Below, one piece after another: positions 32,036-53,007 of a stretch of DNA of 64,000 bases. The notes below the pieces were generated by a model, which was given only the letters and a program-made list of their open reading frames with translations, had not been told where the DNA came from and made no database searches. Position numbers and translations under genes: made by a program. The stretch lies in the NCBI RefSeq assembly GCF_001029105.3, contig NZ_CP011807.3:558001-622000 (forward strand). Direction: 5' to 3'. The stretch is from Pandoraea faecigallinarum (lineage in GTDB: Bacteria; Pseudomonadota; Gammaproteobacteria; Burkholderiales; Burkholderiaceae). Position 1 is the stretch's first letter. Every line of letters begins with the position of its first letter.

Positions 32036-33181
32036 TCAGGCGATGCGCTGTCCCGTCATATACGTTTCGCGCGGAATGGGCGGCATGCCGGGGCGTACGG
32101 CAACGCGCACCATATCGGCACGCAGGCCCGGCCGGATGCCGCCGCGATCGGTCAGACCCACCGACTGCGCCGGATTCCACGACACCGTGCGCATGGCCTT
32201 CGACAGCGTCCAGCCGTGCGCCGCGTGATCGTTGTGCAACTGGAACGCCGCTTGCAACAGGCTCGCCGGCACGTAATCCGACGACAGAATGTCCAGCACA
32301 TCCTCTCGCGCGAGTTCCGCTGCCGCCACATTACCCGAGTGCGAGCCGCCGCGCACCACGTTCGGCGCACCCATGATGACGCCGATCGACTTGTCGTGCG
32401 CCGCGCGCGCGGCAACGAGCGTCGTCGGAAATTCGGACAGTGCGACGCCGTCACGCCCGGCTTCTTCCACATGTTCGAGCGATGTGTCGTCGTGACTCGC
32501 GAGCGGCAGACCACGCTCGCGGCTCATCGCGACGATGGTGCGACGATGCGCAATGGCGTACTTCTCCTGCTGTGCTTTCAGGTCCGCGAGCATGGCGTCC
32601 CACTGCGCGTCCGGCACCTTGCCGTTGCGCTCATGGTATTGACGGTGCAGCACCGGGTCGTGCCACTGACGTTGTCCCGGCGTGTGATCCATCACCGATA
32701 CGAGACGCAGCAGCGGGTGATCGCACATGTCGGCAAACGTATCGGCGGCGTCCTGCGTCGCGATTTCACAGCGCAGATGCAGGAAGTGGTCCGCACGGAA
32801 AAGACCGGCCGCAATGGTGTCGAGCAGCGCCTGCCCGCACTCGACCTGCACTTTGCGGCTGCGCAGGCCGGACGCGTCACGCTCGCCAATCACCAGCGAG
32901 TCGAACACGGTCGTGATGCCGGCGGCGGCGATCTGCGCGTCGTGGATCGCGAAAGCGGCGTGCGTATTCCAGTACACGCCCGGACGCGGCGCGAGGTGCT
33001 TCTCCAGATTGTCGGTATGCAGCTCCACCAGGCCCGGCACCAGATAGTCGCCCTCCCAGTCGATGGCCTCGGCCGCTTGCGTCGTGCCTTCCTCCACGGC
33101 GTAAATGAGGCCTTCGCGCACTTCGACCACGCCGTGGAAGGTCGTGTCGGGCGTGACGATGCGAGCGTTCTTGATAAGCAT
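32036..33181 (-). CDS. phnM: Alpha-D-ribose 1-methylphosphonate 5-triphosphate diphosphatase
   Basis: PhnM removes pyrophosphate from ribosyl phosphonate triphosphate, giving the substrate of C-P lyase. The 381-residue amidohydrolase-superfamily protein has the metal motif ELHTDNLEKH (His55, Asp57), SHDDTS and later conserved GAPNVVRGGSHSGN and SSDYVP with the catalytic Asp. The ATG at 33181 has CGGAG nine bases upstream. It is the last gene of the phnG-to-phnM operon. Confidence 0.96.
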   Translation of the reverse strand: MLIKNARIVTPDTTFHGVVEVREGLIYAVEEGTTQAAEAIDWEGDYLVPGLVELHTDNLEKHLAPRPGVYWNTHAAFAIHDAQIAAAGITTVFDSLVIGERDASGLRSRKVQVECGQALLDTIAAGLFRADHFLHLRCEIATQDAADTFADMCDHPLLRLVSVMDHTPGQRQWHDPVLHRQYHERNGKVPDAQWDAMLADLKAQQEKYAIAHRRTIVAMSRERGLPLASHDDTSLEHVEEAGRDGVALSEFPTTLVAARAAHDKSIGVIMGAPNVVRGGSHSGNVAAAELAREDVLDILSSDYVPASLLQAAFQLHNDHAAHGWTLSKAMRTVSWNPAQSVGLTDRGGIRPGLRADMVRVAVRPGMPPIPRETYMTGQRIA

Positions 33182-33197
33182 GGACAGACTCCGGGGA

Positions 33198-34019
33198 TCA
33201 ATGAGCGGGACGAAGCACGGGGCGCATCGCGAGCGTGCGCGTCGCCACTTCGTCGCGGGTGGCCTCGTCGTGGAAGATGCCGACGATGGCGCTGCCCGCG
33301 GCACGGGCTTCGGCAATCAGTTGCGCGACCACGGCGCGGTTGTGCGCGTCGAGCGACGCCGTCGGCTCGTCGAGCAGCAGCACGGGGGCGGTGGCGATCA
33401 GCCCGCGTGCGATGTTGATGCGCTGTTGCTCGCCACCGGAGAACGTCGCCGGTGCGAGCGTCCAGAGACGTTCGGGAATGTTCAGCCGTGCCAGCAGGTC
33501 GCGCGCGCGCCTGGCAGCCTCGGCGTCGCCATGCCCCAACCGGCGCAGCGGCTCCGCCACGATGTCCAGCGTGCTCACGCGCGGGATCACGCGCAGGAAC
33601 TGGCTGACGTAGCCGAGTGTGGTGCGGCGCACGGCGAGCACTTCGCGCGCGCTCGCGGCGCTCAGGTCGACCCAGCGCCCGCCGCGTCCGGTCCGGGTGG
33701 CGTCGTGGCGAATCTCGATGCGTCCCTCACCCACGAGGTAGTTGCCGTAGAGGCAGCGCAGCAGCGTACTCTTGCCCGAGCCCGAGGGGCCGACGAGCGC
33801 AACGCACTCGCCGCGCCGTACCGTCAGATCGACACCTTCGAGTGCCGGAATGGCCACGCCGCCCTGCGCGTGCAGACGGAAAGTCTTGTGCAGGCCCTGA
33901 GCGCGCAGCATGACGTCGTCCTCGCGTGTGCCGAGGGTGAGCGCCGCGTCACAGGGCGAGGTGAACGTGGTGGACGTGGCGGAATTCGCGAACGAAGGGA
34001 GAAGAGTTCCGGAGTTCAT
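33198..34019 (-). CDS. phnL: Phosphonate C-P lyase system protein PhnL (ABC-type ATPase)
   Basis: PhnL is an ABC-like ATPase needed with PhnG, H and I to attach phosphonate to the ribose of ATP; it is not a transporter. The 273-residue protein has Walker A GPSGSGKS (77-84), signature [15 protein letters not shown] and Walker [12 protein letters not shown]. The ATG at 34019 overlaps the phnK stop as ATGA. Met37 (33911) would give the more usual N terminus [11 protein letters not shown]; the first 36 residues are Ser/Thr-rich and may not be translated. Confidence 0.94.
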
Positions 34020-34828
34020 ACGGGCAGCACCGAGGAAACCAGCAATTGCGTGTAAGGATGTTGCGGATCGTCGAGTACCTGATCGGTGAGCCCGGTCTCG
34101 ACCACGCGCCCCGCCTGCATCACGATCAGACGATGGGCGATGAGACGCGCCACCCCGATATCGTGCGTGACGATGATGGCGGCCAGATGAAGGCGCTCCA
34201 CCAGCGAGCGCAGCAGATCGAGCAGGCGTGCCTGCACCGACACGTCGAGACCGGCGGTCGGCTCGTCCATGAACACCAGCCGCGGTTCCGTCACCAGATT
34301 TCGCGCAATTTGCAGACGCTGCTGCATGCCGCCGGAGAACGCGCCGGGCATCTCGTCCACCCGCGCGGGGTCGAGTTCGACCTGTGCCATCCAGTGACGC
34401 GCCTTCTCGCGAATGTCTCCGAAGTGACGCGCCCCGACCGCCATCAGCCGGTCCCCGATATTGCCTCCGGCGGATACGTTCATGCGCAGTCCGTCGCGCG
34501 GGTTCTGTTCGACGAATCCCCACTCGGTGCGCAGCAGGCGGCGCCTGTGCGCTTCGTCGAGTGCGCTCAGGTCGTGCAGCGTGCCGTCGATGCCGCGATA
34601 GTGGAGGGAGCCGGCATCGATCTCGTGACGCAGGGCCAGCGCGTTGAGCAACGTCGACTTGCCCGACCCGGATTCGCCCACGACACACACCACTTCGCCG
34701 GGCCAGAGATCGAACGTCACGTCGGCACAGCCGACCCGCTCGCCGTAATGCTTGCCAAGGCCCGTGACGCGCAGCAGCGGTGCGTCCATGGTTGCGGTAC
34801 CTGGCGCTTTATCCGTCGCGGCGTTCAT
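34016..34828 (-). CDS. phnK: Phosphonate C-P lyase system protein PhnK (ABC-type ATPase)
   Basis: PhnK docks on the PhnGHIJ core as an ABC-like ATPase. The 270-residue protein has Walker A GESGSGKS (51-58), signature [15 protein letters not shown] and Walker [13 protein letters not shown]. It is preceded and followed by ATGA overlaps with phnJ and phnL, a tight translationally coupled operon. Confidence 0.95.
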
Positions 34829-35823
34829 GTGCGCTCCCCGGGTGCCCGAGCGGGCGCTGCAGTCGTTACATGAGTCGTTGCATGCGCCGGTACGCGAGCA
34901 GGCGTACGCACCGGTGCGTGCGCCACGCCGGTCATGCCGGCCGAGGCGCGCTCGCCGCAGTAGTCGCTGTCCGAGCACACATACATGCGCGTGCCTTCGT
35001 CGTCGGTGATGACTTCGTCGAGAAAGCTCTCGGTCGCGCCGCACAGCGCGCAATGGGCGTCCCACTTCTGGATCTCGAACGGATGATCGTCGAAGTCGAG
35101 GCTCTGCACCGGCGTGTACGGCGGTATGGCATAGAGACGTCGTTCGCGTCCCGCGCCGAAGAGTTGCAGCGCCGGGTTCATATGCATCTTGGGATTGTCG
35201 AATTTCGGAATCGGTGAGGGCGACATCAGATAACGCCCGTTCACGATGACGGGGTAGTCGTAGGTCGTGGCGATGGCGCCGTGACGCACGATGTCTTCGT
35301 ACAGACGCACGCGCATGAGGCCGTACTCACCGAGCGCGTGCAGCTTGCGCGACTCCGCGATGCGCGGCTCCAGGCGATACATCGGCTCGGGCATCGGCAC
35401 CTGGTAGACTAGGATCTGGCCGTCGGTGAGCGCCGCTTCGGGTATGCGGTGACGTGTCTGGATAACGCTCGCCTGCGTCGTCTTCGTGGTGGTGGCGACC
35501 CCGGCCGTGCGCGCGAAGAAACGGCGAATGTTCACGGCGTTGGTCGTGTCGTCCGCGCCCTGGTCGATGACCTTGAGCCTGTCGCCGGCACCGATCACGG
35601 CGGCGGTGACCTGAATGCCGCCTGTGCCCCAGCCATAGGGCAGCGGCATTTCGCGGCTGCCGAACGGCACCTGATAGCCGGGAATCGCGACCGCCTTGAG
35701 CAGGCTGCGTCGAATCATGCGCTTGGTGTGCTCGTCGAGAAAGGCGAAGTTGTAGCCGTCTGCCGTCGTCGCGCCGGGCGCTGCGGGGTGGGGCGTGTCC
35801 TGCCATGTGGCGGCGTCGTTCAT
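34825..35823 (-). CDS. phnJ: Carbon-phosphorus lyase core radical enzyme PhnJ
   Basis: PhnJ is the radical-SAM enzyme that breaks the C-P bond, releasing the alkane and ribose cyclic phosphate. The iron-sulfur and catalytic cysteines are C258, C261, C283 and C289 (C-X2-C-X21-C-X5-C). The glycyl-radical residue is Gly49 in PGYQVPFG. Both are offset by exactly 17 from E. coli (Gly32, Cys272), so the active site is intact. The protein is 332 residues versus about 281 in E. coli. The extra length is 17 residues at the N terminus and a Thr/Ala/Pro-rich tail after residue about 297. ATGA overlaps on both sides. Confidence 0.97.
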   Translation of the reverse strand: MNDAATWQDTPHPAAPGATTADGYNFAFLDEHTKRMIRRSLLKAVAIPGYQVPFGSREMPLPYGWGTGGIQVTAAVIGAGDRLKVIDQGADDTTNAVNIRRFFARTAGVATTTKTTQASVIQTRHRIPEAALTDGQILVYQVPMPEPMYRLEPRIAESRKLHALGEYGLMRVRLYEDIVRHGAIATTYDYPVIVNGRYLMSPSPIPKFDNPKMHMNPALQLFGAGRERRLYAIPPYTPVQSLDFDDHPFEIQKWDAHCALCGATESFLDEVITDDEGTRMYVCSDSDYCGERASAGMTGVAHAPVRTPARVPAHATTHVTTAAPARAPGERT

Positions 35824-37103
35824 GCGGCCTCCTGAGTGGTCCGGACAGCAGGCGCGACGGCATCGCCTTCGGGCTGCATTCCGTATTTCGCGGCGTGCTC
35901 CGCGCGCAGACGGCGCACCAGTTCCAGCTCGGACTGGAAGTCGACGTAGTGCGGCAGCTTCAGGTGCTGCACGAAGCCCGAGGCTTCCACGTTGTCGCTG
36001 TGGTACAGCACGAATTCCTGTTGCTGGGCAGGCGAGTTGGCTTCGTCGCCCAGTTCCTTCGTGCGCAGCGCACGGTCGACCAGCGACATGGCCATCGCCT
36101 TGCGTTCGTTGTGACCGAAGGCCAGTCCGTAGCCCTGTGTGAACTGCGGCGGCGTCTGCCGATTGCCACCGAACTGCGTGACCATCTGGCATTCCGTCAC
36201 GGCGATCTCGCCGATGTCGATGGCGAAGCCGAGTTCTTCGGGTTCGATTTCGATGCGCACCTGCCCGATGCGGATCTCGCCGGCAAAGGGGTGGTCGTTG
36301 CCGTAACCGCGTTGCGTCGAATAACCGAGCGCCAGCAGGAAACCCTCGTCGCCGCGGGCGAGGTTTTGCAGGCGGGCGGTGCGCGAAGCTGGTGTGAAGA
36401 GCGGCGAGTGCACGAGGTCGTGCGGTTCGGGATCGCTGCTGTCGGTGCACAGCGCTTCGAGCAGGCCGTCGCGCTTCATGATGTCGGTCACGCGCGTGGT
36501 AGCGGCAATGGGCGGAACGTCGGGAACGTCGGGAACGTCCGGGGCGCTGGCCTCGCTCGCGGACGGTGCCGCGTCTGCTGTCTGCTTCGCGGTGTCGGTC
36601 GCAACGTCCACCGCCGTCCGCGCCGCCGAGGCAGCTCCCGTTCCGCCGGCCGTACCGCGCATCTCGCCCGGGAGCGCCGTCCCCGGCATCTCACCCTCGG
36701 CCAGCAGGGCGAAGTCGAGCAGGCGTTGCGTGTAGTCGTACGTGGCGCCAAGCACCTGACCGCCCGGCACGTCCTTGAATGTCGCGGAGATGCGGCGCGA
36801 CAGACGCATCTCCGCCGTATCGATGGGCCGGGTGGTGCCCAGCCGTGGCAGCGTCGTGCGATAGGCACGCAGCAGGAAGATCGCCTCGACGAGATCGCCC
36901 GCTGCCTGCTTGATCGCCAGCGCGGCAAGCGTTTCGTCGTACAACGCGCCTTCGCTCATCACGCGCGAGACGGCCAGACGCATCTGTTCCCGGATCTGGG
37001 TCACGGTCAGCGCAGGGATATCGGGATTGCCGCGTCGCGCCCTGGCGAGCAGATCCCACGATTGTTCGATGGCGCGCTCGCCACCTTTGACTGCGACGTA
37101 CAT
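35820..37103 (-). CDS. phnI: C-P lyase core subunit PhnI with a low-complexity insertion
   Basis: PhnI is the nucleosidase-like subunit that, with PhnG/H/L, displaces adenine from ATP by phosphonate. The start MYVAVKGGERAI and the C-terminal RRLRAEHAAKYGMQ region are typical. The protein is 427 residues, longer than the roughly 354 of E. coli. Much of the excess is an Ala/Gly/Asp/Pro-rich insertion at about residues 138-198, containing DVPDVPDVPP encoded by a 9-base tandem repeat. The ATG at 37103 overlaps the phnH stop as TGATG and has GGAGG upstream. Confidence 0.94.
   Translation of the reverse strand: MYVAVKGGERAIEQSWDLLARARRGNPDIPALTVTQIREQMRLAVSRVMSEGALYDETLAALAIKQAAGDLVEAIFLLRAYRTTLPRLGTTRPIDTAEMRLSRRISATFKDVPGGQVLGATYDYTQRLLDFALLAEGEMPGTALPGEMRGTAGGTGAASAARTAVDVATDTAKQTADAAPSASEASAPDVPDVPDVPPIAATTRVTDIMKRDGLLEALCTDSSDPEPHDLVHSPLFTPASRTARLQNLARGDEGFLLALGYSTQRGYGNDHPFAGEIRIGQVRIEIEPEELGFAIDIGEIAVTECQMVTQFGGNRQTPPQFTQGYGLAFGHNERKAMAMSLVDRALRTKELGDEANSPAQQQEFVLYHSDNVEASGFVQHLKLPHYVDFQSELELVRRLRAEHAAKYGMQPEGDAVAPAVRTTQEAA
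36514..36540. repeat. Three 9-base tandem repeats inside phnI
   Basis: GGAACGTCG occurs twice and GGAACGTCC once, head to tail, in frame with phnI, encoding repeated Asp-Val-Pro. Copy-number change would add or remove three residues without shifting the frame. Confidence 0.9.
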
Positions 37104-37738
37104 CAGCAAACCTCCACGTGCGTGGTGCGCGGCAGCCCGAGCACCGAGTCGCCTGCGGCGATCAATAAATCGAGGCCGGCCGGAAAGCGCGGCGCGAGTG
37201 CGGCGCGCGCCTGCCAGAAGCCGGCGTCAAGCGCGCCGACCGTGACGTCCGCGTGCGTCTCGATGCCTGGGCCGCGCAGACGCAGACGCAGTCCGCCGTC
37301 ACCCGCGTGGCCTTCGGCAAGGGTGGGCACATCGACGATCAACGTGGTGCTGTGTTCCGGCGACCCGGCAGTCCCGAACGCGAAGCGCTCGAGCGCCGGG
37401 CAGCGGGCGGGATCGGTGAGCAGTGCAAACTGCGCCGTCGCGAGTTCGGCTTCGCCACCGAGCAGCGGCGCACCGGTGTGAAAGCGCAGCGCGCTCGATA
37501 CTTCGGTGAGCGGCGCTTGCAGCCATACTGGCGTGGTGGCGTCGGTCAGCGCGAGGAGCGTGGCGCGCGCGGCTACGCTCGCTTCGGCGCTGTGCGCGAG
37601 GCGTTTGCCGACGCTGCGCAGTTGGCCTGGGCGCGCGAGCGCATCGAGCACCGCGCGAAAGACGCCCTGGGCGTCGTGGACCGGATCGGCGAAACCGGGT
37701 TGCAACGCCGACCAGTCAGGCATCCGTGCCGTCGACAT
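37103..37738 (-). CDS. phnH: C-P lyase core subunit PhnH
   Basis: PhnH is a core subunit of the C-P lyase complex with a PLP-transferase-like fold but no cofactor. The 211-residue protein has the family pattern PGFADPVHDAQGVFRAVLDA near the start and ALERFAFGTAGSPEHSTTL in the middle. GGGAGG precedes the ATG at 37738. It starts just before the end of phnG (one base gap), consistent with coupled translation. Confidence 0.94.
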   Translation of the reverse strand: MSTARMPDWSALQPGFADPVHDAQGVFRAVLDALARPGQLRSVGKRLAHSAEASVAARATLLALTDATTPVWLQAPLTEVSSALRFHTGAPLLGGEAELATAQFALLTDPARCPALERFAFGTAGSPEHSTTLIVDVPTLAEGHAGDGGLRLRLRGPGIETHADVTVGALDAGFWQARAALAPRFPAGLDLLIAAGDSVLGLPRTTHVEVC

Positions 37739-37739
37739 T

Positions 37740-38231
37740 TCAGGCCTCCCGGACCATGGTGAAGAACTCGACGCGGCTCGCGGCCGTGTCGGCGTCACGC
37801 TGCTCGGCGGCAGCCGTCAGGCGTTGCGAGATCGTGGCGAGCGCACCGGCGGCGAGCGCGCTGCGGTACAGCGGCATCTGCATGAGGGCATCCAGACGCG
37901 CCACGCGCACGGCGCGCTCGCTGTCGCGTCCGAGCACGTAGCCGGTGCCTATCACGCCGTCCTGCTGTCGCAGGGTGCAGCGCGTGACGGTCGTCTCGCC
38001 GAGGTTGAAACGCTCGCCGCTGCCGCCCACGCGGCCCTGCACCATCACGAGGCCGGTCTGCGGCGCGCGCAGCCAGACGAAGGGTGGCGCGTCGGGACAA
38101 TGGGCGATGGCGTCGTCGAGTTCGTCGCGGGTGGCGCGCGCAAGCAACGCCAGCCACCTGGCACGCTCGGGCCGCGTCTGCCGGGCAGCGCCGTCCTCGT
38201 CACGCGTAGTGTCGGAAGATGTGATTCGCAT
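37740..38231 (-). CDS. phnG: C-P lyase core subunit PhnG
   Basis: PhnG binds PhnI in the core complex and is the first gene of the phnGHIJKLM operon. The 163-residue protein has the family segment RWLALLARATRDELD and a GRVGGSGERFNLGE loop. The ATG at 38231 has no ribosome site. A palindrome that contains a possible -10 sequence lies only five bases upstream, so the mRNA may be nearly leaderless. An in-frame later start is not obvious. Confidence 0.92.
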   Translation of the reverse strand: MRITSSDTTRDEDGAARQTRPERARWLALLARATRDELDDAIAHCPDAPPFVWLRAPQTGLVMVQGRVGGSGERFNLGETTVTRCTLRQQDGVIGTGYVLGRDSERAVRVARLDALMQMPLYRSALAAGALATISQRLTAAAEQRDADTAASRVEFFTMVREA

Positions 38232-38323: not shown

Positions 38324-39085
38324 ATGACAGCGCAACTCGAACGTGGCGCCGGCGTTGCGGTCTGGCGGCAAATTGCGCAGATTCTGGCGACGGAGATCGG
38401 TGAACGACGCTATGGCGAAGGCCTGCCGGACGATCGTCTGCCGAGCGAGACGGAGCTTGCGCAGCGTTTCGGCGTCAACCGCCACACCGTGCGCCGCGCG
38501 ATTCTCGGACTTGCCGAGCAGGGCCTCGTGAACGTCGAGCATGGCCGCGGCACGTTCGTGCAGGCCGCAGCCATCGGCTACGTGATCGGGCGCCGTACCC
38601 GTTTCACCGAAAACCTCTCGCAGAACAATCTGAAGACGGCGCAGCGGATCGTCTCGGCCCATAAGGTCAAGGCGGAAGGCAGCGTCGCGCAGGCGCTCGG
38701 ACTACGCGCGGGGGCATTCGTCTATCGCGTCGAACTGGCGCGTCGCAGTCTCGACGCCCAAGGCATCGAGTTGCCGCTGGCCTACAGCGAGAACTGGTTC
38801 TCCGCATCGCGCTTTCCCGACTTTCCCGACGTCTTCGAGCAGCACGAAACCATCAGTGCCGCGCTCGCCGTGTTCGGCGTGAAGGATTACACGCGTCGGG
38901 AAAGCCGCATTGGCGCACGCATGCCCGATGCCGACATTGCGCGTCATCTCGGGATCAATCGTCAGCAACCGGTGCTGAGTGTGGAGAGTACCGATGTGGA
39001 CGAGGCGGGCAAGCCGATCAAGTACGGTATCGCCTATTTCCCGGCCGATCGCATGCAACTCGTGGTGCAGGGGGAAGCGCAATGA
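38324..39085 (+). CDS. phnF: GntR/HutC family phosphonate regulator PhnF
   Basis: PhnF is the dedicated transcription factor of C-P lyase operons. The 253-residue protein has an N-terminal GntR winged helix (about residues 10-80; LPSETELAQRFGVNRHTVRR) and a C-terminal UTRA ligand-binding domain (about 100-245). The ATG at 38324 has GGGG ten bases upstream. Its stop overlaps the next gene as ATGA, so it is co-expressed with DUF1045 and phnN. The palindrome between phnF and phnG is its likely site. Confidence 0.93.
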   Translation: MTAQLERGAGVAVWRQIAQILATEIGERRYGEGLPDDRLPSETELAQRFGVNRHTVRRAILGLAEQGLVNVEHGRGTFVQAAAIGYVIGRRTRFTENLSQNNLKTAQRIVSAHKVKAEGSVAQALGLRAGAFVYRVELARRSLDAQGIELPLAYSENWFSASRFPDFPDVFEQHETISAALAVFGVKDYTRRESRIGARMPDADIARHLGINRQQPVLSVESTDVDEAGKPIKYGIAYFPADRMQLVVQGEAQ

Positions 39086-39843
39086 CTGCCGGATCGGCGC
39101 AAGCGCGGTGGCGCGCGCTCGACCTTCGCAGCGCGCGCGTTGCCATCTACTACGCACCGCCCGCGGGCTCGTGCTGGTGGAATGAAGGTAGCCGCTGGCT
39201 CGGGCGCGACGCCGCCTCCGGCCGGGCGCTTCACGCGCCGAGCGTGCCGGGGCTTTCGCGTTCGCTGCACGATCTGACCGCCGAGCCGCGCCGCTACGGT
39301 CTGCACGCGACACTCAAGGCGCCGATGCGTCTCGCCCCGCACGCGCAGTTGAGTGATCTGTCGGAGATTGCGGCGACGTTGGCCGCGCGTCATGCGCCTT
39401 TCGATCTCGTCATGCACACGGACGTGATCGGCACCGAAAATGGCAAGCGCCCGGGTTTCGTCGCGTTGCGTCCCAAGGCGGGGCTGGCGGGTGAAAAGAC
39501 CATCGACGCTTTTGCTGCCGAGTGCGTTGAAGCCTTCGAGGCCATGCGCGCGCCGTTGAACGAGGCGGAACTGGCGAAGCGAAATCCGCATCTGCTGACG
39601 TCGCGTCAGCGCGAGTTGCTCGACCGTTGGGGCTATCCGTACGTGTTCGACGAGTTCCGTTTTCACGTGACGCTGTCCGATCGCGTCGACGCCGCCGACG
39701 CGACCCTCATCGTCGACTGGTGGCAGCCTCGGGTGCAGGCGCTCGGCCCGATGCGCGTCGACGGGCTCGCCATCTTCGTGCAGCCCGCACCCGGCGAGGT
39801 CTTCCACTGCTTCGAGCGTTTTGCTTTCGGGAAAGCCGCATGA
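39082..39843 (+). CDS. DUF1045 phosphonate-operon protein, predicted 2H phosphoesterase
   Basis: This 253-residue protein belongs to the DUF1045 family found beside C-P lyase genes. Two short motifs, LHATLKAP (His75, Thr77) and FHVTLSD (His195, Thr197), are spaced as in the 2H phosphoesterase superfamily, whose members open cyclic nucleotide or ribose phosphates. PhnP, the usual enzyme that opens the 5-phosphoribosyl 1,2-cyclic phosphate made by PhnJ, is not in this window. The protein is coupled by ATGA overlaps to phnF and phnN, whose substrate is the product of PhnP. I infer that it may do the PhnP step; this is not proven by sequence. Confidence 0.85.
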   Translation: MTAGSAQARWRALDLRSARVAIYYAPPAGSCWWNEGSRWLGRDAASGRALHAPSVPGLSRSLHDLTAEPRRYGLHATLKAPMRLAPHAQLSDLSEIAATLAARHAPFDLVMHTDVIGTENGKRPGFVALRPKAGLAGEKTIDAFAAECVEAFEAMRAPLNEAELAKRNPHLLTSRQRELLDRWGYPYVFDEFRFHVTLSDRVDAADATLIVDWWQPRVQALGPMRVDGLAIFVQPAPGEVFHCFERFAFGKAA

Positions 39844-40412
39844 ACCGCGCACGCCTGTATTACGTGATGGGGCCGTCGGGCGCGGGAAAGGACTCGCTGC
39901 TCGCTTACGCCCGAAGTCGGCTCGATGGTGCACGCGCCGACGCCGTGCCAGTGCTGTTTGCGCATCGCTACATCACGCGCGCGCCGTCGGAAGGGGAGAA
40001 CCATATCGCGTTGTCGCACGCCGCGTTTGCGTTGCGGCATTCGCTCGGATGCTTCGCACTTGACTGGCACAGTCACGATTGCCGTTACGGAATCGGCATA
40101 GAGATCGACGCCTGGCTGGCCGCTGGCGCGAACGTCGTCGTGAACGGTTCGCGGGCGTTTCTCGGGCAAGCCGTGGCGCGCTACGGCGAGCGGTTGCATC
40201 TCGTGGAGATTCGCGTGGACCCCGTGGTGCGCGCGATGCGGCTGGCCAGTCGCGGACGCGAAACCGGCGAGGCGCTCGACAGACGTGTGGCGCACACCGT
40301 GTCGTGGATACCGCCCGAAGGGATCCCGCTCTCGGTGGTCGACAACAATGGCCCGCTCGAAGCGGCTGGCGACCGGCTCGTCGCCATACTGATGTCGCAG
40401 GCGCCGCACTGA
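39840..40412 (+). CDS. phnN: Ribose 1,5-bisphosphokinase PhnN
   Basis: PhnN phosphorylates ribose 1,5-bisphosphate to PRPP, the last step of ribose recycling in the C-P lyase pathway. The 190-residue guanylate-kinase-like protein has the P-loop GPSGAGKD (11-18), HRYITRAPSEGENH and GANVVVNGSRAF. The ATG overlaps the DUF1045 stop (ATGA). This completes a phnF-DUF1045-phnN operon. Confidence 0.95.
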   Translation: MNRARLYYVMGPSGAGKDSLLAYARSRLDGARADAVPVLFAHRYITRAPSEGENHIALSHAAFALRHSLGCFALDWHSHDCRYGIGIEIDAWLAAGANVVVNGSRAFLGQAVARYGERLHLVEIRVDPVVRAMRLASRGRETGEALDRRVAHTVSWIPPEGIPLSVVDNNGPLEAAGDRLVAILMSQAPH

Positions 40413-41740: not shown

Positions 41741-41777
41741 TGAAGCGACATGGGTGTCACCCATGTGTCGTCGCTTC
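41741..41777 (+). other. Bulged hairpin with a 19-base perfect palindrome
   Basis: ACATGGGTG-T-CACCCATGT (41748-41766) is a perfect palindrome. It lies inside longer outer arms GAAGCGA / TCGCTTC, giving a bulged stem of about 15 pairs. It stands between the divergent reductase and dehydrogenase genes and may be an operator or RNA structure. Confidence 0.6.
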
Positions 41778-41781
41778 TCTG

Positions 41782-41817
41782 TTGCAATAAGTGTTGTTAT
41801 GTTGCAAATTATTGCAA
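41782..41817 (+). promoter_or_regulatory. Three phased TTGCAA elements upstream of the FAD dehydrogenase
   Basis: TTGCAA occurs at 41782, 41802 and 41812, that is 20 and 10 bases apart and so on one face of the helix. The outer two are in the inverted repeat TTGCAATAA / TTATTGCAA. This looks like a cooperative operator about 90 bases before the dehydrogenase start. Confidence 0.6.
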
Positions 41818-41902
41818 TGGGCGTGAAGGTCGCGTAGTCTGGCGCCATCCCCCACGACAATTGCCCGGCGTTGGCCGGTGCGAGCCTTTTCGGAGCCAGT
41901 CC

Positions 41903-44392
41903 ATGCCCTCAGCCATGCCCACCCATGCCCGCGTCGTCATCGTCGGCGGCGGTATCGTCGGTTGTTCCGTCGCGTATCACCTCGCCAAACTCGGCTGGTC
42001 GGACGTTGTCCTGCTGGAGCAGGGGCAACTGTCCTGCGGCACGACGTGGCACGCGGCCGGGCTCGTCGGACAATTGCGCTCGCAGGAAAGCATGACGAAG
42101 CTCATCCGCTATTCCACCAAGCTGTACAGCGAACTGGAAGCGGAGACGGGGCTGGGCACGGGGTGGAAGCAATGCGGCTCGCTGTCCGTGGCGCGCAGCC
42201 AGGAGCGCATGACACAACTCAAGCGCACGGCGGCCGTCGCGCGCGCTTACGGCGTGCAATGCGACGTGATTTCGCCGCGCGAGGCTGGCGAGTTGTGGCC
42301 AGTGATGCGCACCGACGATCTGGTCGGCGCGGTATGGCTGCCCGGCGACGGCAAGGCCAACCCCACGGATCTCACGCAGGCCCTGGCGCGAGGGGCGCGC
42401 AGCCGCGGCGTGCGCATCGCCGAGAACACGCGGATCACACAGATTCATACGGCGTCGCCCAACGGCATACCCACGGCGACGGGCGTGTCGTGGCGGAACA
42501 AGGCGGGCGAGAGCGGGCGCATCGACGCCGAGATCGTCGTGAACTGCGCGGGGCAGTGGGCCAAGGCCGTGGGGCGCATGTGCGGGGTTACCGTGCCGCT
42601 GCACTCGGCCGAGCACTATTACATCGTGACGGAACGTATCCCGGGTGTGCACACGGACCTGCCGGTCATGCGCGACCCGGACGGCTACATCTATTTCAAG
42701 GAAGAAGTCGGCGGTCTGGTGATGGGCGGCTTCGAGCCGAATGCGAAGCCGTGGGGCATGAACGGCATTCCGGAGAATTTCGAGTTTCAGTTGCTGCCCG
42801 ACGACTGGGACCAGTTCGAAATCCTCATGGAGAACGCCCTCATCCGGGTGCCGGCACTGGAGACGGCGCAGATCCGGCAGTTCTACAACGGGCCGGAGTC
42901 GTTCACGCCGGATAACAACTTCATTCTCGGCGAAGCGCCCGAGTTGCGGAATTTCTACGTCGGCGCAGGCTTCAATTCGATGGGCATCGCGTCGGCGGGC
43001 GGCGCGGGCATGGCGCTCGCCGAGTGGATCGTCGCGGGCGAGCCGACGATGGATCTCTGGCCCGTGGACATCCGCCGCTTTGCCGGTTTCAACGGCAACG
43101 ACACGTGGCTGCACGATCGTGTGAAGGAAACGCTCGGCCTGCATTACGCCATGCCGTGGCCGAACCGTGAACTGGATACCGCGCGGCCGTTCCGCCGCTC
43201 GCCGCTGTACGCAACGTTGCTCGACAAGGGGGCGTGCTTCGGCAGCAAGATGGGATGGGAGCGGCCGAATTTCTTCGCGCCGTCGCCCGCCGAGGCAAAG
43301 ATCGAGTACAGCTTCGGGCAGCAGAACTGGCACGCGTGGAGTGCGGCGGAGCATCGCGCATGCCGCGAGGCGGTGGCGCTTTTCGACATGAGTTCGTTCT
43401 CGAAGCTGCTCATCAAGGGCCGTGACGCCGAACAGGTATTGCAGACCCTGTGCAGCAACGACGTTGCCGTCGCGCCGGGGCGCACCGTCTATACCGCCAT
43501 GCTCAACGAACGCGGCGGCTACGAGTCGGACTTCACGCTCACGCGACTCGCTCCCGATCGATACCTCATGGTGACAGGCTCCGCGCAGGCGGTACGGGAC
43601 ATGGATTTTCTGGAGCGGCGCATCGCAAGCCTGCCCGGCGACCCACGCTGCACGGTGGTCGACGTGACCGGGCAATACGCCGTGCTCGCGCTCATGGGGC
43701 CGAACGCTCGTGCGCTGTTGCAGCAGGTCTCCAAGGCCGATTTCTCCAACGAGGCGTTCCCGTTTGGCTCAAGCCGGGAGATCGATCTCGGCTATGCGAC
43801 GGTGCGCGCGACCCGTCTGACCTACGTGGGTGAACTTGGCTGGGAACTGTATGTGCCGGTCGAATTTGCGGTGGGCGTCTATGAGGCGCTGCATGCGGCA
43901 GGCGGGGCTTTCGGCCTGAAAGACGCGGGCTATTACGCGATCGATTCGTTGCGCATCGAGAAGGGCTATCGCGCATGGGGGCGGGAACTCACGCCGGACG
44001 TCAATCCGGTCGAAGCGGGGCTGACGTTCGCCTGCAAGCTCGCAAGCGATATCGCGTTCACCGGACGCACGGCCGTCGAACTCGCCAGATCGAAGGGGGC
44101 GAGGCGCCGGCTCGTGAGTGTGGCGCTGGACGGCGCGGGCGACCGGATGCTTTGGGGCGGCGAGGCTGTGCTGCGTGACGGACAGCCTGTCGGGTTCATC
44201 TCCTCGGCGGCGTTCGGTCATACCGTCGATGCGCCGGTGGGTCTCGCGTTCCTCACGAATCCGGACGGGCCGGTGACGCCCGAATACGTCGACGCGGGCC
44301 GCTATCAGGTCGACCTTGCAGGCGAACGACTCGACGCTCGCGTGCAGCTGCGCGCGTTGTACGACCCGAAAGGCGAGCGCGTGAAGGGGTAG
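41903..44392 (+). CDS. Sarcosine/dimethylglycine dehydrogenase-like FAD protein with GcvT domain
   Basis: This 829-residue enzyme has an N-terminal FAD-binding oxidoreductase (DAO) domain: the dinucleotide fold VVIVGGGIVGCSVAYHLAKL, the flavin-attachment region CGTTWHAAGLVGQL with the His that is covalently flavinylated in relatives, and FYVGAGFNSMGIASAGGAGM. A C-terminal half resembles aminomethyltransferase GcvT (about 430-829), which binds tetrahydrofolate and captures the one-carbon unit. Relatives demethylate dimethylglycine or sarcosine. The substrate cannot be fixed from sequence. Its position between two phosphonate clusters and close to purU makes an N-methylglycine product of C-P cleavage an attractive substrate. 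Confidence 0.88.
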   Translation: MPSAMPTHARVVIVGGGIVGCSVAYHLAKLGWSDVVLLEQGQLSCGTTWHAAGLVGQLRSQESMTKLIRYSTKLYSELEAETGLGTGWKQCGSLSVARSQERMTQLKRTAAVARAYGVQCDVISPREAGELWPVMRTDDLVGAVWLPGDGKANPTDLTQALARGARSRGVRIAENTRITQIHTASPNGIPTATGVSWRNKAGESGRIDAEIVVNCAGQWAKAVGRMCGVTVPLHSAEHYYIVTERIPGVHTDLPVMRDPDGYIYFKEEVGGLVMGGFEPNAKPWGMNGIPENFEFQLLPDDWDQFEILMENALIRVPALETAQIRQFYNGPESFTPDNNFILGEAPELRNFYVGAGFNSMGIASAGGAGMALAEWIVAGEPTMDLWPVDIRRFAGFNGNDTWLHDRVKETLGLHYAMPWPNRELDTARPFRRSPLYATLLDKGACFGSKMGWERPNFFAPSPAEAKIEYSFGQQNWHAWSAAEHRACREAVALFDMSSFSKLLIKGRDAEQVLQTLCSNDVAVAPGRTVYTAMLNERGGYESDFTLTRLAPDRYLMVTGSAQAVRDMDFLERRIASLPGDPRCTVVDVTGQYAVLALMGPNARALLQQVSKADFSNEAFPFGSSREIDLGYATVRATRLTYVGELGWELYVPVEFAVGVYEALHAAGGAFGLKDAGYYAIDSLRIEKGYRAWGRELTPDVNPVEAGLTFACKLASDIAFTGRTAVELARSKGARRRLVSVALDGAGDRMLWGGEAVLRDGQPVGFISSAAFGHTVDAPVGLAFLTNPDGPVTPEYVDAGRYQVDLAGERLDARVQLRALYDPKGERVKG

Positions 44393-44496
44393 GTCACAAA
44401 ACCGCTGCCACGGCGAACTCGCCGCCGCTTCTGTAAAATGCCGCTTTTGCCTCGTTTTCGTGCGTCAGTGTCTGGCGCGCGTCCGGTCTTCGACGT

Positions 44497-45348
44497 ATGT
44501 CTTTTGCCTGTATTGCGGCGGCACGCCGCTTCGACGACAGAGCGCATCTGCCGCTCGTGATCGGCTCGCAGCGTTATGGATGGATTCGCCGTAGCGATGT
44601 CGAGTCGCTGTGCCGCTGGCCCGACGTGTTCGAGATCAGCTCGCTCGCCGTGCGTATCCATCCGCGTCACGACACGTGCGACGCGCGCACGGCGGCGCTT
44701 GCGCCCGTGATCGAGACGCTCGCCGCCGAGGGGCGCATCACCGGGTGGCGCAACGAGCGTTACGCGATCCGCCAGCGTCTTTACGACGCGCCGCTCGCAT
44801 GGATCGAACGCGCCGCCTCCCGCTTTTTCGGCACGCGTACGTTTGCCGTCCACGTGAACGGTTACGTGCCCGCCCGTTTCGTCGGTGAAGCGCCGAAGAT
44901 GTGGATCGCGCGCCGCAGCGTGCTCAAGGCGACCGACCCCGGCTGCCTGGACAATGCGGCCGCGGGCGGGATCGGAAACGGCATCGGCGTGGGCGACACG
45001 CTCGTCAAGGAATGCTGGGAAGAAGCCGGCATCCCGGCGTATCTGGCCAACGAGGCGCGCCCGGGCCGTACGCTGCACATACTTGCGGAGATTCCGGAGG
45101 GTGTGCAGTCCGAGCAGATTTTCGTCTACGATCTCGCGCTGCCGCGCGGCTTCGTTCCCGAAAATCAGGACGGCGAGGCGAGCGCCCACTGGCTGTGCTC
45201 GGCGGGGAACGTACGCGACGTGATCGCGCGCGGCAAGATGACCGTCGACGCGAGCCTCGCGAGTCTCGATTTCCTGCTGCGCGAGGGGGCGATTCGCGCG
45301 AAGGACTGTGCGGGTATCGAGGCGCTGTTCAAGCCGGCGGACGAGTAA
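44497..45348 (+). CDS. Nudix hydrolase with DUF4743 domain (Tnr3-like)
   Basis: This 283-residue protein has an N-terminal DUF4743 domain (about 1-110) and a Nudix domain. The Nudix box at about 157-179 reads GGIGNGIGVG...KECWEEAGI: the EExG part is intact, while the first acidic residue and the Arg are replaced (Lys instead of Arg), as in the yeast Tnr3-type branch. Those enzymes hydrolyse damaged thiamine pyrophosphate forms. The role here is inferred by family. It lies 104 bases after the FAD dehydrogenase. Confidence 0.88.
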   Translation: MSFACIAAARRFDDRAHLPLVIGSQRYGWIRRSDVESLCRWPDVFEISSLAVRIHPRHDTCDARTAALAPVIETLAAEGRITGWRNERYAIRQRLYDAPLAWIERAASRFFGTRTFAVHVNGYVPARFVGEAPKMWIARRSVLKATDPGCLDNAAAGGIGNGIGVGDTLVKECWEEAGIPAYLANEARPGRTLHILAEIPEGVQSEQIFVYDLALPRGFVPENQDGEASAHWLCSAGNVRDVIARGKMTVDASLASLDFLLREGAIRAKDCAGIEALFKPADE

Positions 45349-45508
45349 GCCCGGCATTTCGACGATGGGACGATGGGGCGGTGTGTCGCCCCGGCGCCCG
45401 GCGCCAGGCACCCGGCGAGTGCGCGAGCGAGCGTGTCCCGGGCCTGCCGACCGAGTTCATGAATTTCAACACTGCAACGACATTGCAAGCCTTTGCCCAG
45501 GAGCAACC

Positions 45509-46381
45509 ATGGCACCGATCGAAAATAGCTACATCCTGAAGTTGTCCTGCCCGGACCGTCCCGGCATCGTCCACACGGTGGCCGGTTTCCTGGTCGAGCG
45601 CGGCGGCAACATTCTCGACTCGGCGCAATTCAACGATCGCTTCACGGGCGGCTTCTTCATGCGCGTGCATTTCCAGCAGTTGCCCGGCGAGAGCGATCTG
45701 GCGTCGTTGCAGCGCGATTTCGCGCCGTTGGCCGAGCAGTTCGAGATGCAATGGGAACTGGTCGACGCGTCCATCAAGCCGCGCGTCATGCTGATGGTCT
45801 CGAAGATCGGTCACTGCCTGAACGATCTGCTGTTCCGCTACAAGACCGGGCAACTGAACATCGAGATCCCGGCGATCGTCTCGAACCACAAGGATTTCTA
45901 TCAACTGGCGGCGAGCTACAACATTCCGTTTCATCATCTGCCGCTGATGAATGCGACGCCCGCATCGAAGGCCGCGCAGGAAGCCAAGGTGTTCGAGCTG
46001 GTGCAGGAGAACAACATCGACCTCGTGGTGCTCGCGCGCTACATGCAGGTGCTCTCGAGCGACCTGTGCAAGAAGCTGGAAGGGCGCGCCATCAATATCC
46101 ACCACTCGTTCCTGCCGAGCTTCAAGGGCGCGAAGCCCTACTATCAGGCGTTCGACCGTGGCGTGAAGCTGATCGGCGCGACGGCGCATTACGTGACGTC
46201 CGACCTCGACGAAGGCCCGATCATCGAGCAGGAAGTCGAACGTGTGGATCACACGATGGACCCGGAGCAACTGACGGCCATCGGTCGCGACGTCGAATGC
46301 GTGGCGCTCGCGCGCGCCGTGCGCTTCCATGCGGAGCACCGCATTCTGCTCAACGGTCACAAGACCGTGATTTTCCGCTGA
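45509..46381 (+). CDS. purU: Formyltetrahydrofolate deformylase
   Basis: PurU hydrolyses 10-formyl-tetrahydrofolate to formate and tetrahydrofolate, balancing the one-carbon pool. The 290-residue protein has an N-terminal ACT domain (YILKLSCPDRPGIVHTVAGF) and a formyltransferase domain with NIHHSFLPSFKGAKPY and the catalytic Asp in SDLDEGPI. The ATG at 45509 has CAGGAGC upstream. The nearby sarcosine-type dehydrogenase, which loads one-carbon units on folate, gives a metabolic reason for the neighbourhood. Confidence 0.95.
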   Translation: MAPIENSYILKLSCPDRPGIVHTVAGFLVERGGNILDSAQFNDRFTGGFFMRVHFQQLPGESDLASLQRDFAPLAEQFEMQWELVDASIKPRVMLMVSKIGHCLNDLLFRYKTGQLNIEIPAIVSNHKDFYQLAASYNIPFHHLPLMNATPASKAAQEAKVFELVQENNIDLVVLARYMQVLSSDLCKKLEGRAINIHHSFLPSFKGAKPYYQAFDRGVKLIGATAHYVTSDLDEGPIIEQEVERVDHTMDPEQLTAIGRDVECVALARAVRFHAEHRILLNGHKTVIFR

Positions 46382-48713: not shown

Positions 48714-49847
48714 CTAGGCGGCGCGCGTGAGCGGCGCGACCTGACGGATGCCCAGCGAGGCCAGCGACTGCGAAATCGCCGTGACGACATTGCGCATTTC
48801 GTTGTCGTCGATGGCGCCGATGCATCCGACGCGGAACGTCTCGATCTGCGTGAGCTTGCCCGGATAGAGGATGTAACCGCGCTCGCGCACCGCTGCGTAG
48901 AACGCCTTGAAGTCGTACTTACTGTCGGCCGGGGCGTGGAATGTCACGATGACCGGCGCCTGCACCTCCGGGGCGAGGAACGGCCGGAACCCCAGTGAGG
49001 CCATACCGTCCACGAGCGTCCTGCAGTTTTTCCGGTAGCGCTCCCCGCGCACCGGTTGCCCCCCTTCGCGCAGGAATTGATCGACCGCGGCACGCAACGC
49101 CGCGACCACGTGCGTGGGCGGCGTGAAGCGCCACTGGGTCGTCTTCTGCATATAGACGTACTGATCGTGCAGATCCATCGCAAGCGAATGGCTGTTGCCG
49201 CCGCTCGCTTCGAGCACCGACTTTTTCGCGATGACGAATCCCATGCCCGGCACGCCTTCGAGGCATTTGCCGCTCGCCGCGATGAGGGCGTCGAACGGCA
49301 TCGACCGGACATCGATCTCCACGGCGCCGAACGAACTCATCGCATCGACGATCAATCCCTTGCCGTGCTTCTGGCAGACACGCGCGATTTCCGCGAGCGG
49401 ATTCAGAACGCCGGCGCCGGTCTCCAGATGCACCTGCGCCACGTGCGTGATCGACGGATCGCGCGTGAGCGCTTCGTCGATGGCCGCGGCGCCGGCAGCC
49501 TGATCCTCGGGAACGGGCAGGGCGACGGCCTCTCGTCCGAGATAGCGGCAGATTTTCAGAATGCGCTGGCAGTACGCACCGTTATCCGGCACGAGAATGC
49601 GGGCGTTACGCGGCGTGAGCGTGCCGATGGCCGCTTCGACCGAAAATGTGCCCGAGCCTTGCAGCGGCACGCAGACATAATCCGCGCCGCCATGCACGAT
49701 GTCCACGAGGTCGCGGCACAGCGAGGCGGTGATCTGGTTGAACTGGGCGTCCCATGAACCCCAGTCGCGCAGCATGGCCTGTCGGGTGGCCGGCGACGTG
49801 GTGAGCGGGCCGGGGGTGAGCAGAATCGGTTCCTGACCGAGAATCAT
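48714..49847 (-). CDS. phnW: 2-aminoethylphosphonate:pyruvate aminotransferase
   Basis: PhnW moves the amino group of 2-aminoethylphosphonate (2-AEP) to pyruvate, giving phosphonoacetaldehyde and alanine. The 377-residue PLP enzyme starts [11 protein letters not shown], has Asp168 in [14 protein letters not shown] for the pyridine nitrogen and the PLP lysine Lys194 in [12 protein letters not shown] class V aminotransferase C terminus ends with RVGCIGAID. It is the last transport/catabolic gene of the minus-strand half of cluster 2. No phnX is present, so its product goes to PhnY. Confidence 0.95.
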
Positions 49848-49981
49848 GACCGCCTCCTATCAAGCGGGGAATGAAGCGAAGGACTGAGCGAATGACGATG
49901 CAAACGAAATAGCGAATACAGGCGCGAACGGTTCCGGCGAAAGCATGGATGACTTCATCGGCTTCAACAGTGTCCTGGCCC

Positions 49982-51796
49982 TCAGTGGCCGTTGCGTGCC
50001 GGGGCGCCCTGCGTCGCCGACGGCCGCCGCCAGGCCTGCGTATAACGTTCCACCACGATCTGAACGCCGTGATAGAGCAGACACACGAGCATCGAAGTGA
50101 GCACGACGAGCGTGGCCATGGCGGCTGCCGGTCCGATGGAGCCGGTCTCATCCATGTTGACGATGGCGACCGAGGCGAGCGACGTATCGGCCGAGTAAAG
50201 GAAGACGACCGCCGAGACCGTCGTCATGGCGTTGACGAACAGGTACCGGCTGATGTCAATGATCGACGGCAGGCAGATCGGCGCGGACACTCGCCAGAAC
50301 GTGCGGTAGAACGGCACCTTGAGCGACGCCGACACGTATTCGAATTCCGGGTCGATCTGCTTGAGTGCCGTCACTGCCGTGAGATGGCTCGACGAGTAGT
50401 AATGCACGACGTTGACGATCACCAGAATGGCGAGCGTGCCGTACAGGTTGTGCAGCGGATTCGCCTCGGAGACGAAGAAGAAGATATAACCGAGGCCCAG
50501 CACCAGCCCCGGCACGCCCATCGGCAGCACGGCCATCATGCGGATGAAGCCGCGCAGCCACACCATGCCGCGTGTCTTCTCAAGCAGATAGGCGATGACG
50601 AAGATGGCCGCCGTACCCCACACCGCGCACCAGAATGCCATCTGCAAGCTGTTCACGTACGAATCCACCGCACCGCTCTCGACGAGACCGAACCGGTAGT
50701 GGCCGAGCGACAGACTGAAGTTGTACGGCCAGAACTTCACGAACGACGCGTACACCGCCATCCCGAGGATGGCCAGCATGATGGCCGCCATGCCCCAGCA
50801 CATTGCCGCCATGACCCAGTCGAACCCGCGCGCGGGTTTCGGCACGTAAGGCACGGCGCGCGCACTGAGCAACGCCTGCTGCTTGCGTTGCACGACCGAA
50901 TCGACGAGATACGTGATGCCCACCGGCACCAGCAACACCAGACCGACGACCGCGCCCTTCGAAAAGTCCTGCTGACCGATCACCAGTTTGTAGATGTCGG
51001 TCGCGAGTACGTTGAAATCGCCGCCGATGACCTTCGGAATACCGAAATCGGAAATCGCATAGGTGAAGACGATCATCGCGGCACTGATAACCCCGTACTT
51101 CGCGCCCGGCAGCGTAATGGTGAAGAAGCGGCGCAGGGCGGGAGTGCCAAGGGCGTCGGCGGCTTCGTAGAGTCGTGCGTCCGTGAGTGAGAGCGCAGTG
51201 ATCAGGATCATCAGCGCATGCGGGAACGTGGCGTTCACGAGCGACATCACGATGCCCAGCGGCCCGTAAATGTCCACGTCACCCATGAACGGACGCAGCA
51301 GCCCCTGATTGCCGAACCAGAAGATGAACGAGATGGCGGGCAGCAGCGTGGGACCGAGAATCGGAATCAGAGCGATGTTGCGCAGCAGGGTCTTGTGGCG
51401 GATGCAACTGCGCGTGAGGGCATACGCGAAAACGAAGGCGAGTGGCACGGTGATGCACGTCGTCACCATCGAAATCCACACGCTGTTCCAGATCGAGCCG
51501 AACAGCGCGGGCGAATGAAAGTACTCGCGGAAATGACGTAAGCCGACGAAGTGGCCGTCGTTATCCTGCACGCTCTTGACGAGAATCGCGGCCATCGGAG
51601 TGAGCAGAAACAGCACGCCGGCAGCCGCCGCGACGAGCAGCAGTGCCTGTGCGAGACGATCGGTCCAATGCGACGCAAGGCGCACCGGGCGCACCGCGCA
51701 CGGCGGCGGACGGTCGGCCAGGCTCTGCGGCGCCTGTGCCGCTTGCGGCTGGGCGCCCTGCGCGGCGCTATCGAGTGTCGAGGATACGGAGCTCAT
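49982..51796 (-). CDS. 2-aminoethylphosphonate ABC transporter permease (two fused domains)
   Basis: This 604-residue protein contains two complete binding-protein-dependent permease domains in one chain: residues about 50-320 and 330-590, each with about six helices and an EAA-type loop (ARLYEAADALGTPALRRF and EFEYVSASLKVPFYRTF). It therefore does the work of separate PhnU and PhnV. Long Ala/Gln-rich N-terminal tail. It follows phnT by five bases. Confidence 0.92.
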   Translation of the reverse strand: MSSVSSTLDSAAQGAQPQAAQAPQSLADRPPPCAVRPVRLASHWTDRLAQALLLVAAAAGVLFLLTPMAAILVKSVQDNDGHFVGLRHFREYFHSPALFGSIWNSVWISMVTTCITVPLAFVFAYALTRSCIRHKTLLRNIALIPILGPTLLPAISFIFWFGNQGLLRPFMGDVDIYGPLGIVMSLVNATFPHALMILITALSLTDARLYEAADALGTPALRRFFTITLPGAKYGVISAAMIVFTYAISDFGIPKVIGGDFNVLATDIYKLVIGQQDFSKGAVVGLVLLVPVGITYLVDSVVQRKQQALLSARAVPYVPKPARGFDWVMAAMCWGMAAIMLAILGMAVYASFVKFWPYNFSLSLGHYRFGLVESGAVDSYVNSLQMAFWCAVWGTAAIFVIAYLLEKTRGMVWLRGFIRMMAVLPMGVPGLVLGLGYIFFFVSEANPLHNLYGTLAILVIVNVVHYYSSSHLTAVTALKQIDPEFEYVSASLKVPFYRTFWRVSAPICLPSIIDISRYLFVNAMTTVSAVVFLYSADTSLASVAIVNMDETGSIGPAAAMATLVVLTSMLVCLLYHGVQIVVERYTQAWRRPSATQGAPARNGH

Positions 51797-51801
51797 CGTG
51801 A

Positions 51802-52896: not shown

Positions 52897-53007
52897 TCGG
52901 GGGACCTCCTGCATGTCGTTGCGTGGCGTGGCCGGACGCGACGCCGGTGGCCATCGCCCGGCGTCGCTCGAACGTCACTCGGACGTTCATCGGAAGTTAA
53001 GCGTTCT

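Follow-up and report, generated by a model that had tools for sequence, protein, structure and literature searches.

The DUF1045 gene and its place among the phn genes

The window analyzed here, a stretch of 64,000 nucleotides of Pandoraea faecigallinarum (contig NZ_CP011807.3, positions 558,001 to 622,000), carries a set of carbon-phosphorus (C-P) lyase genes, and among them lies a gene for a protein of the DUF1045 family that is a candidate replacement for the cyclic phosphate enzyme PhnP. As the initial annotation had described, the gene sits between phnF and phnN and is coupled to both by ATGA overlaps: the start codon ATG (39082-39084) shares bases with the phnF stop codon TGA (39083-39085), and the stop codon TGA (39841-39843) does so with the phnN start codon ATG (39840-39842). 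The sequence and the matches of the two neighbors to TIGR02325 and TIGR02322 bear out this arrangement. Upstream, in divergent orientation, lie phnGHIJKLM, and the gene thus sits among C-P lyase genes. The features, in window positions, are as follows.

39082 to 39843, + strand: DUF1045 / 2H phosphoesterase-like protein, 253 amino acids; predicted 5-phosphoribosyl 1,2-cyclic phosphate phosphodiesterase (PF06299, PF13563, TIGR03223, predicted 2H fold)
39304 to 39312, + strand: first HxT motif, H75-A76-T77 (sequence, aligned copies)
39664 to 39672, + strand: second HxT motif, H195-V196-T197 (sequence, aligned copies)
38324 to 39085, + strand: phnF, GntR-type regulator (TIGR02325, 231.1 bits, cut-off 156.8; start ATG 38324 picked by eye, longest open reading frame from 38234)
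39840 to 40412, + strand: phnN, ribose 1,5-bisphosphokinase (TIGR02322, 179.4 bits, cut-off 156)
37740 to 38231, - strand: phnG (TIGR03293, 155.9 bits, cut-off 89)
37103 to 37798 (start approximate), - strand: phnH (TIGR03292, 171.3 bits, cut-off 91.5)
35820 to 37109 (start approximate), - strand: phnI (placed by its position between phnH and phnJ and by similarity to the same-position gene of other phn clusters; its product had no match of its own among the NCBIfam models)
34825 to 35823, - strand: phnJ, radical C-P lyase subunit (PF06007, E 3.6e-145, at G000:C1:592945-593757, which is window 34945-35757; ATG picked by eye inside a longer open reading frame)
34016 to 34780 (start approximate), - strand: phnK (TIGR02323, 371.6 bits, cut-off 302.85)
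33198 to 33911 (start approximate), - strand: phnL (TIGR02324, 326.2 bits, cut-off 256.3)
32036 to 33181 (start approximate), - strand: phnM (TIGR02318, 443.8 bits, cut-off 390.55)

The protein matches the Pfam profile PF06299 (DUF1045) over all 159 positions (160.7 bits, cut-off 24.3, E 3.6e-47) and, more weakly, 2_5_RNA_ligase2 (PF13563; 38.6 bits, cut-off 27) and LigT_PEase (PF02834; 24.4 bits, cut-off 23.3). Its sole NCBIfam match at E <= 0.001 is TIGR03223, "putative phosphonate metabolism protein," which it follows from profile position 1 to 227 of 228 at 248.5 bits; because this falls narrowly short of the cut-off (248.95), we filed the protein under PF06299 and not under TIGR03223. Homology to PhnP (TIGR03307) was not found in this search. 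The best named database matches are Pandoraea proteins, with that of P. capi at 78%.

The two HxT motifs pointed out in the initial annotation, HAT at residues 75 to 77 and HVT at 195 to 197, are the only H-x-T/S triplets in the protein. In a predicted model, made from an alignment of 40 of the 120 listed homologues, they stand at the start of strands 76-82 and 196-202 of a 2H fold. When this model was compared with known structures by Foldseek and VIA-align, it matched solved 2H phosphoesterases, the RNA-end enzymes LigT and Usb1 being among the nearest, so that the motifs and the predicted fold together support the earlier assignment to the 2H phosphoesterase type. A sequence search for a solved structure gave no match up to E 10.

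These motifs are widely conserved. Among 119 aligned DUF1045 domains (120 copies minus one partial copy, L123_G155bx, which entered neither the tree nor the motif counts), His75 is kept in 116, Thr77 in 112, His195 in 115 and Thr197 in 105, with Ser at the last position in 6 more. If any tested phn gene lying no more than 4.5 kb from DUF1045 is taken as a phn neighbor, with PhnK-like matches alone not counted, both HxT/S motifs are kept in 90 of the 91 copies that have one; the exception, G155b, is a gene broken in two. The corresponding figure for copies without a phn neighbor is 21 of 28, the other 7 having lost the motifs. These seven solo paralogues (L076, L080, L081, L087, L092, L095 and L113), in which the four motif positions read HVHP, MIQM, MLQM or RCYP, all fall in one clade and so do not represent seven independent losses; judging by their sequences, they are possibly a non-catalytic paralogue. 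The copy at L080 lies near genes for an FAD oxidoreductase, a Methyltransf_30 protein and a polysaccharide deacetylase. The window protein itself carries a short insert (residues 119 to 125); at these positions at least 117 of the 119 copies in the alignment have a gap, rising to 118 at three of them, with the window protein itself counted among the 119.

The initial annotation had noted that the window holds no PhnP, and this extends to the whole host genome (G000; 5,732,664 bases in 3 contigs, completeness given as 100), in which TIGR03307 had no match at E <= 0.001 on any contig. A PhnP encoded elsewhere in the host, by this measure, was ruled out. The same search of 14 control genomes returned matches in 11 and exceeded the cut-off in Escherichia coli only. 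DUF1045 occurs once in the host genome and in none of the 14 controls; we looked for a second DUF1045 or a further PF13563 protein in the host and found neither.

DUF1045 and PhnP across C-P lyase genomes

To place the window gene among its relatives, we used two samples. A phylum sample of 396 genomes included 108 with PhnJ above its cut-off and 91 with DUF1045 at 133 bits or higher, and an order sample of 200 genomes included 22 with PhnJ, of which 3 were already counted and 19 were added, for a PhnJ total of 127. A weak PhnJ match below cut-off (G040) was not counted, nor were DUF1045 matches of at most 37.8 bits, which exceeded the cut-off in G165, G219 and G334 and fell below it in G302. 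DUF1045 alone was found in 80 of the 108 phylum PhnJ genomes, PhnP alone in 26, both in 0 and neither in 2, and the 19 further genomes of the order divided in the same sequence into 13, 4, 0 and 2. Across all 127, DUF1045-type genomes outnumber PhnP-type genomes by about 3:1 (93 versus 30, with 0 carrying both and 4 neither), and annotation of the pathway by the presence of PhnP would therefore miss most C-P lyase genomes of this Pseudomonadota-type sample. The TIGR03307 scores split cleanly, at 296 bits or higher in 30 PhnJ genomes and at most 111.2 in the rest, and all 30 PhnP genes lie 3.9 to 4.6 kb from phnJ. Within the phylum sample, PhnJ was present in 80 of the 91 DUF1045 genomes compared to 28 of the 305 others. 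Fisher tests (P of 5.5e-23 and 0.004 for exclusion and 6e-47 for DUF1045 with PhnJ) assume independent genomes, and we did not rely on them because the PhnJ tree shows that the genomes are not independent.

DUF1045 lies within 15 kb of phnJ in 62 of the 80 genomes that carry both, and it adjoins phnM and/or phnN in 10 of the other 18 (G051, G055, G091, G117, G143, G208, G212, G220, G262 and G395). Four genomes in which DUF1045 adjoins phnM and/or phnN had no PhnJ that we could find (G253, G095, G340 and G378; loci L012, L007, L013 and L016), and these may be remnants or cases of a different use of these enzymes. In several phnM-bearing clusters of the order Burkholderiales, we also observed a divergent second PhnM-like gene between phnF and DUF1045 (L018, L023, L024 and L032; truncated in L004), with NF011987 scores of 478 to 533 bits in the three complete copies scanned (L018, L023 and L032). 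As for the four genomes with neither enzyme, the phn cluster runs to a contig edge in G547 and G432, whereas G305 and G308 are genuine exceptions. The clusters of these last two (L002 and L003) are complete from phnF to phnN and belong to family f20, where PhnP is found in 11 of 13 PhnJ genomes.

In two genomes, G444 and G556, DUF1045 and PhnN were joined in a single reading frame, of 425 and 431 amino acids, respectively. Both fusions scored 232.3 bits with TIGR03223 (below 248.95), and they scored 187.4 and 188.7 bits with the PhnN model TIGR02322 (above 156). Used as a database query, the 425-residue fusion drew 1861 matches; all 120 of those listed carry PF06299, with lengths of 376 to 454 amino acids and 83 to 100% query coverage, and many of them are annotated solely with a PhnN-type name, for example "ribose 1,5-bisphosphokinase." When 33 of the 120 were aligned, the DUF1045 half showed invariant His63, Thr65 and His174 and a second Thr that was a consensus but not an invariant residue, and in the PhnN half the GxSGxGKD residues were invariant. 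Single-frame fusions were also present in 7 of the best 80 of 509 confirmed stretches from named-genome loci, a proportion that is not a frequency, since the stretches were ranked by likeness to the fusion. The seven are assigned to Rhodocyclaceae (L189, whose 18,228-base record is that of G556), Proteobacteria, Herminiimonas (two), Noviherbaspirillum, Betaproteobacteria and Rhodospirillaceae. Six have both motifs in the strict HxT form, and L190 has the first only. PhnP over the cut-off was absent from the four of these seven genomes that were searched and from G444.

Further evidence came from a PhnP that has lost its metal-binding motif. At L195, from a record titled as a Gammaproteobacteria metagenome-assembled genome, the gene order is phnJ-K-L-M-DUF1045-phnN followed by a PhnP-like frame (5525-6319). 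Its best match is PhnP, by TIGR03307 (115.4 bits, cut-off 272.25) and by PDB 3g1p (94 bits), which we take to be PhnP of E. coli. The protein has PGWGTGR in place of THYHADH of PhnP and AGG and PGG in place of RHS and TDT, residues that are presumably the metal ligands of PhnP, and it retains a THxxH stretch near its end. Corresponding losses were seen in a protein named for Thioalbus denitrificans (P0242; 78% identical), and in a genome with a protein identical to P0242 (L269) the gene adjoins phnN and an intact DUF1045 (HAT, HLT). No further match to TIGR03307 in the L195 genome exceeded 20.1 bits, and motif-less PhnP was found in 2 of the 94 genomes of the relatives search, one being the L195 genome itself. 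UniRef names the Thioalbus motif-less protein as the cyclic phosphate enzyme. Two candidates were set aside in this search: L195 as a case of DUF1045 and PhnP occurring together, its PhnP having no metal-binding motif, and the PhnP-like match of L196, which scores better as another metallo-beta-lactamase family (NF038231, 221.9 bits, below its cut-off of 360, versus 68.9 for PhnP). We found no earlier description of the fusion or of a motif-less PhnP in the available text of literature naming DUF1045, PF06299 or TIGR03223, and to our knowledge neither has been reported.

Proposed reaction and rival explanations

We consider it highly probable that the window gene encodes a metal-independent 2H-type phosphodiesterase doing the job of PhnP. 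The DUF1045 protein would very probably supply PhnN with ribose 1,5-bisphosphate by hydrolyzing 5-phosphoribosyl 1,2-cyclic phosphate. C-P lyase (PhnJ) leaves 5-phospho-alpha-D-ribosyl 1,2-cyclic phosphate, whose cyclic phosphate His75/Thr77 and His195/Thr197 would grip, one His activating water and the other protonating the leaving 2-oxygen; the ring would thereby open to ribose 1,5-bisphosphate, and PhnN, from the overlapping next gene, phosphorylates this to phosphoribosyl pyrophosphate (PRPP). The substrate, the opening toward the 1-phosphate, the independence from metal and the roles of both histidines are inferred from what is analogous in LigT, in CNPase and in the plant enzyme for ADP-ribose 1'',2''-cyclic phosphate. 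The initial annotation had put the protein forward as a candidate replacement for PhnP, and this candidacy gains support from the genome without PhnP, the predicted 2H fold, the replacement pattern, the PhnN fusion, the retention of both motifs in phn-linked copies and the motif loss in PhnP beside DUF1045, all of which, with the domain, the motifs and the gene order, were shown in this analysis. The fusions and the motif-less PhnP make a strong genomic case for the function of a family still labeled DUF. The chances seem even that the fusions are bifunctional, a single polypeptide carrying the cyclic phosphate through the bisphosphate to PRPP; DUF1045 would then be a second, metal-free evolutionary solution, and a displaced PhnP, like that of Thioalbus, would be kept without its catalytic motif as a non-catalytic protein.

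A PhnP replacement had already been proposed in the literature by 2013, under the gene name rcsF, and the idea is at least 13 years old. Martinez et al. 2013 (PMC3840354) described a fosmid experiment in which E. coli deleted for phnHIJKLMNOP grows on methylphosphonate, and rcsF was proposed to replace PhnP. PMC10574752 credits Podzelinska et al. 2009 with a survey of 54 operons in SEED, in which PhnP was present in 27 and rcsF in 16 operons without phnP. The rcsF proposal is repeated in PMC5649143 and PMC6981132, DUF1045 is given as a proposed phosphoribosyl cyclic phosphodiesterase in PMC8235418, citing Hove-Jensen et al. 2014, and a "putative C-P lyase DUF1045" appears among the C-P lyase proteins in a Phaeobacter phosphorus-stress table (PMC10132767). 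We read RcsF and DUF1045 as one family, the two names being equated in no paper that we found. An enzyme assay of the DUF1045/RcsF protein was not found in the available text of this literature, where coverage of subscription journals is thin. To this earlier work the present analysis contributes scale, the predicted fold, the joining of DUF1045 to PhnN and the PhnP that lacks its motif.

Several observations weigh against the proposed role. On the PhnJ tree, which holds 119 of the 127 genomes (8 PhnJ sequences lay outside the fetched loci), the PhnP/DUF1045 label needs just 2 changes by parsimony, compared to an average of 26.6 for shuffled labels; the exclusion pattern therefore amounts to a few old replacements traveling with the operon, and, because host families f2 and f12 each hold both types, the enzyme type tracks the operon and not the host. 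DUF1045 occurs without PhnJ in 11 of the 91 DUF1045 genomes of the phylum sample, and in 8 of the 80 with PhnJ it lies beside no phn gene among those tested, which did not include PhnC, PhnD, PhnE and PhnO, in flanks of about 4 to 8 kb (G141, G230, G250, G252, G256, G323, G372 and G380); some members therefore do something else or act in trans. A nearby ABC ATPase in G141 and G372 matches the PhnK model, with low direct scores of 44 to 60 bits, from which we judged it to be generic; matches of generic ABC ATPases to the PhnK and PhnL models did not enter the count of phn genes. Other solutions also exist, since both enzymes are missing from G305 and G308 despite their complete phn clusters (whole-genome profile searches found no PhnP over the cut-off and no DUF1045) and PMC10574752 names a cyanobacterium and archaea without phnNOP. 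By our own reading of PMC3840354, the fosmid experiment did not isolate rcsF, and E. coli host enzymes could contribute. Genes called phnP have been reported from alphaproteobacteria, in seven Marivita genomes (PMC8774927; KEGG-number annotation) and in a Bradyrhizobium phn cluster (PMC10708946), and in either case may be true PhnP or DUF1045. The query-normalized TM-scores from Foldseek are modest, at 0.43 to 0.45 for the four best matches, and the host carries a PHP-domain frame that is a candidate alternative enzyme.

That frame is the basis of one rival explanation, in which another host enzyme opens the ring and DUF1045 acts elsewhere in phosphonate metabolism. Of three PHP-domain matches in the host, two lie within frames of 1215 and 1158 amino acids that, judging by their size, are DNA polymerase III alpha subunits, and the third is an open frame of 308 amino acids, not of polymerase size, at G000:C1:1820208. 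PMC8774927 names a PhnPP route that starts from the same intermediate, and neither PhnP nor DUF1045 occurs in G305 and G308. We nevertheless regard this explanation as improbable: some 1.2 Mb separate the gene from the phn cluster, to which our search of the host genome linked no PHP gene, whereas DUF1045 overlaps phnF and phnN, and both the fusions and the motif loss in PhnP beside DUF1045 favor DUF1045 as the ring-opening enzyme.

Like LigT, the protein could instead have another cyclic or 2'-linked phosphate as its substrate, such as those of RNA ends or nucleotides, its place in the phn operon being secondary. Although the RNA-end enzymes found among the nearest solved folds point this way, as do solo DUF1045 copies beside unrelated genes (for instance, a SpoU methylase, a response regulator and Host_attach), we think it more improbable still, given the concentration of DUF1045 in PhnJ genomes and its occurrence together with PhnP over the cut-off in none of the 127. 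An opening to ribose 2,5-bisphosphate, which would be a signal or by-product and not the substrate of PhnN, has the precedent that LigT opens a 2',3'-cyclic phosphate with the phosphate left on the 2-oxygen (PMC5283653). The same paper, however, cites 2H enzymes that convert ADP-ribose 1'',2''-cyclic phosphate to the 1''-phosphate, the PhnN fusion points to a product usable by PhnN, and this outcome seems to us very remote.

Surrounding genes and known systems

Close to the C-P lyase genes, at 48714 to 54135 on the - strand, lies a second phosphonate system, with a PhnW transaminase (495.5 bits) and, for 2-aminoethylphosphonate transport, a PhnU2 permease, a PhnT2 ATPase and a PhnS2 binding protein, all over their NCBIfam cut-offs. 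Past phnN on the + strand (41750 to 46381) are genes for a two-domain DAO and GCV_T protein, presumably of the sarcosine/dimethylglycine dehydrogenase sort, a DUF4743 protein and the formyltetrahydrofolate deformylase PurU. As a speculation, these could possibly handle the methyl-amino product after C-P lyase cleaves a glyphosate-like substrate.

Among known enzymes, the 2H phosphoesterases E. coli LigT and Bacillus subtilis YjcG are 14 to 16% identical to the window protein; the studied ligands of LigT are nucleotides and RNA, and we know of no phn linkage for either. The Arabidopsis cyclic nucleotide phosphodiesterase (PDB 1jh6, and 1fsi, titled for Appr>p) is 8 to 9% identical and takes an ADP-ribosyl, not a 5-phosphoribosyl, substrate. 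PhnP, of the metallo-beta-lactamase type with metal ligands and of a fold class unrelated to 2H, shares with DUF1045 the proposed reaction and the position in the pathway, whereas the window protein has no NCBIfam match to PhnP (TIGR03307; PDB 3g1p) and the host genome encodes none; the window protein would thus work like a PhnP without being one. PhnPP, a PHP-type enzyme with a PHP fold, consumes the same cyclic phosphate as that proposed for DUF1045. It differs in its product, described as ribofuranose 5-phosphate (PMC8774927), and in belonging to a gene type that is unlinked to the window cluster. The closest likeness is to the RcsF/DUF1045 proteins of phn operons (TIGR03223, PF06299), with which the window protein shares its Pfam family, gene company and motifs, differing in a score 0.45 bit below the TIGR03223 cut-off and in its insert.
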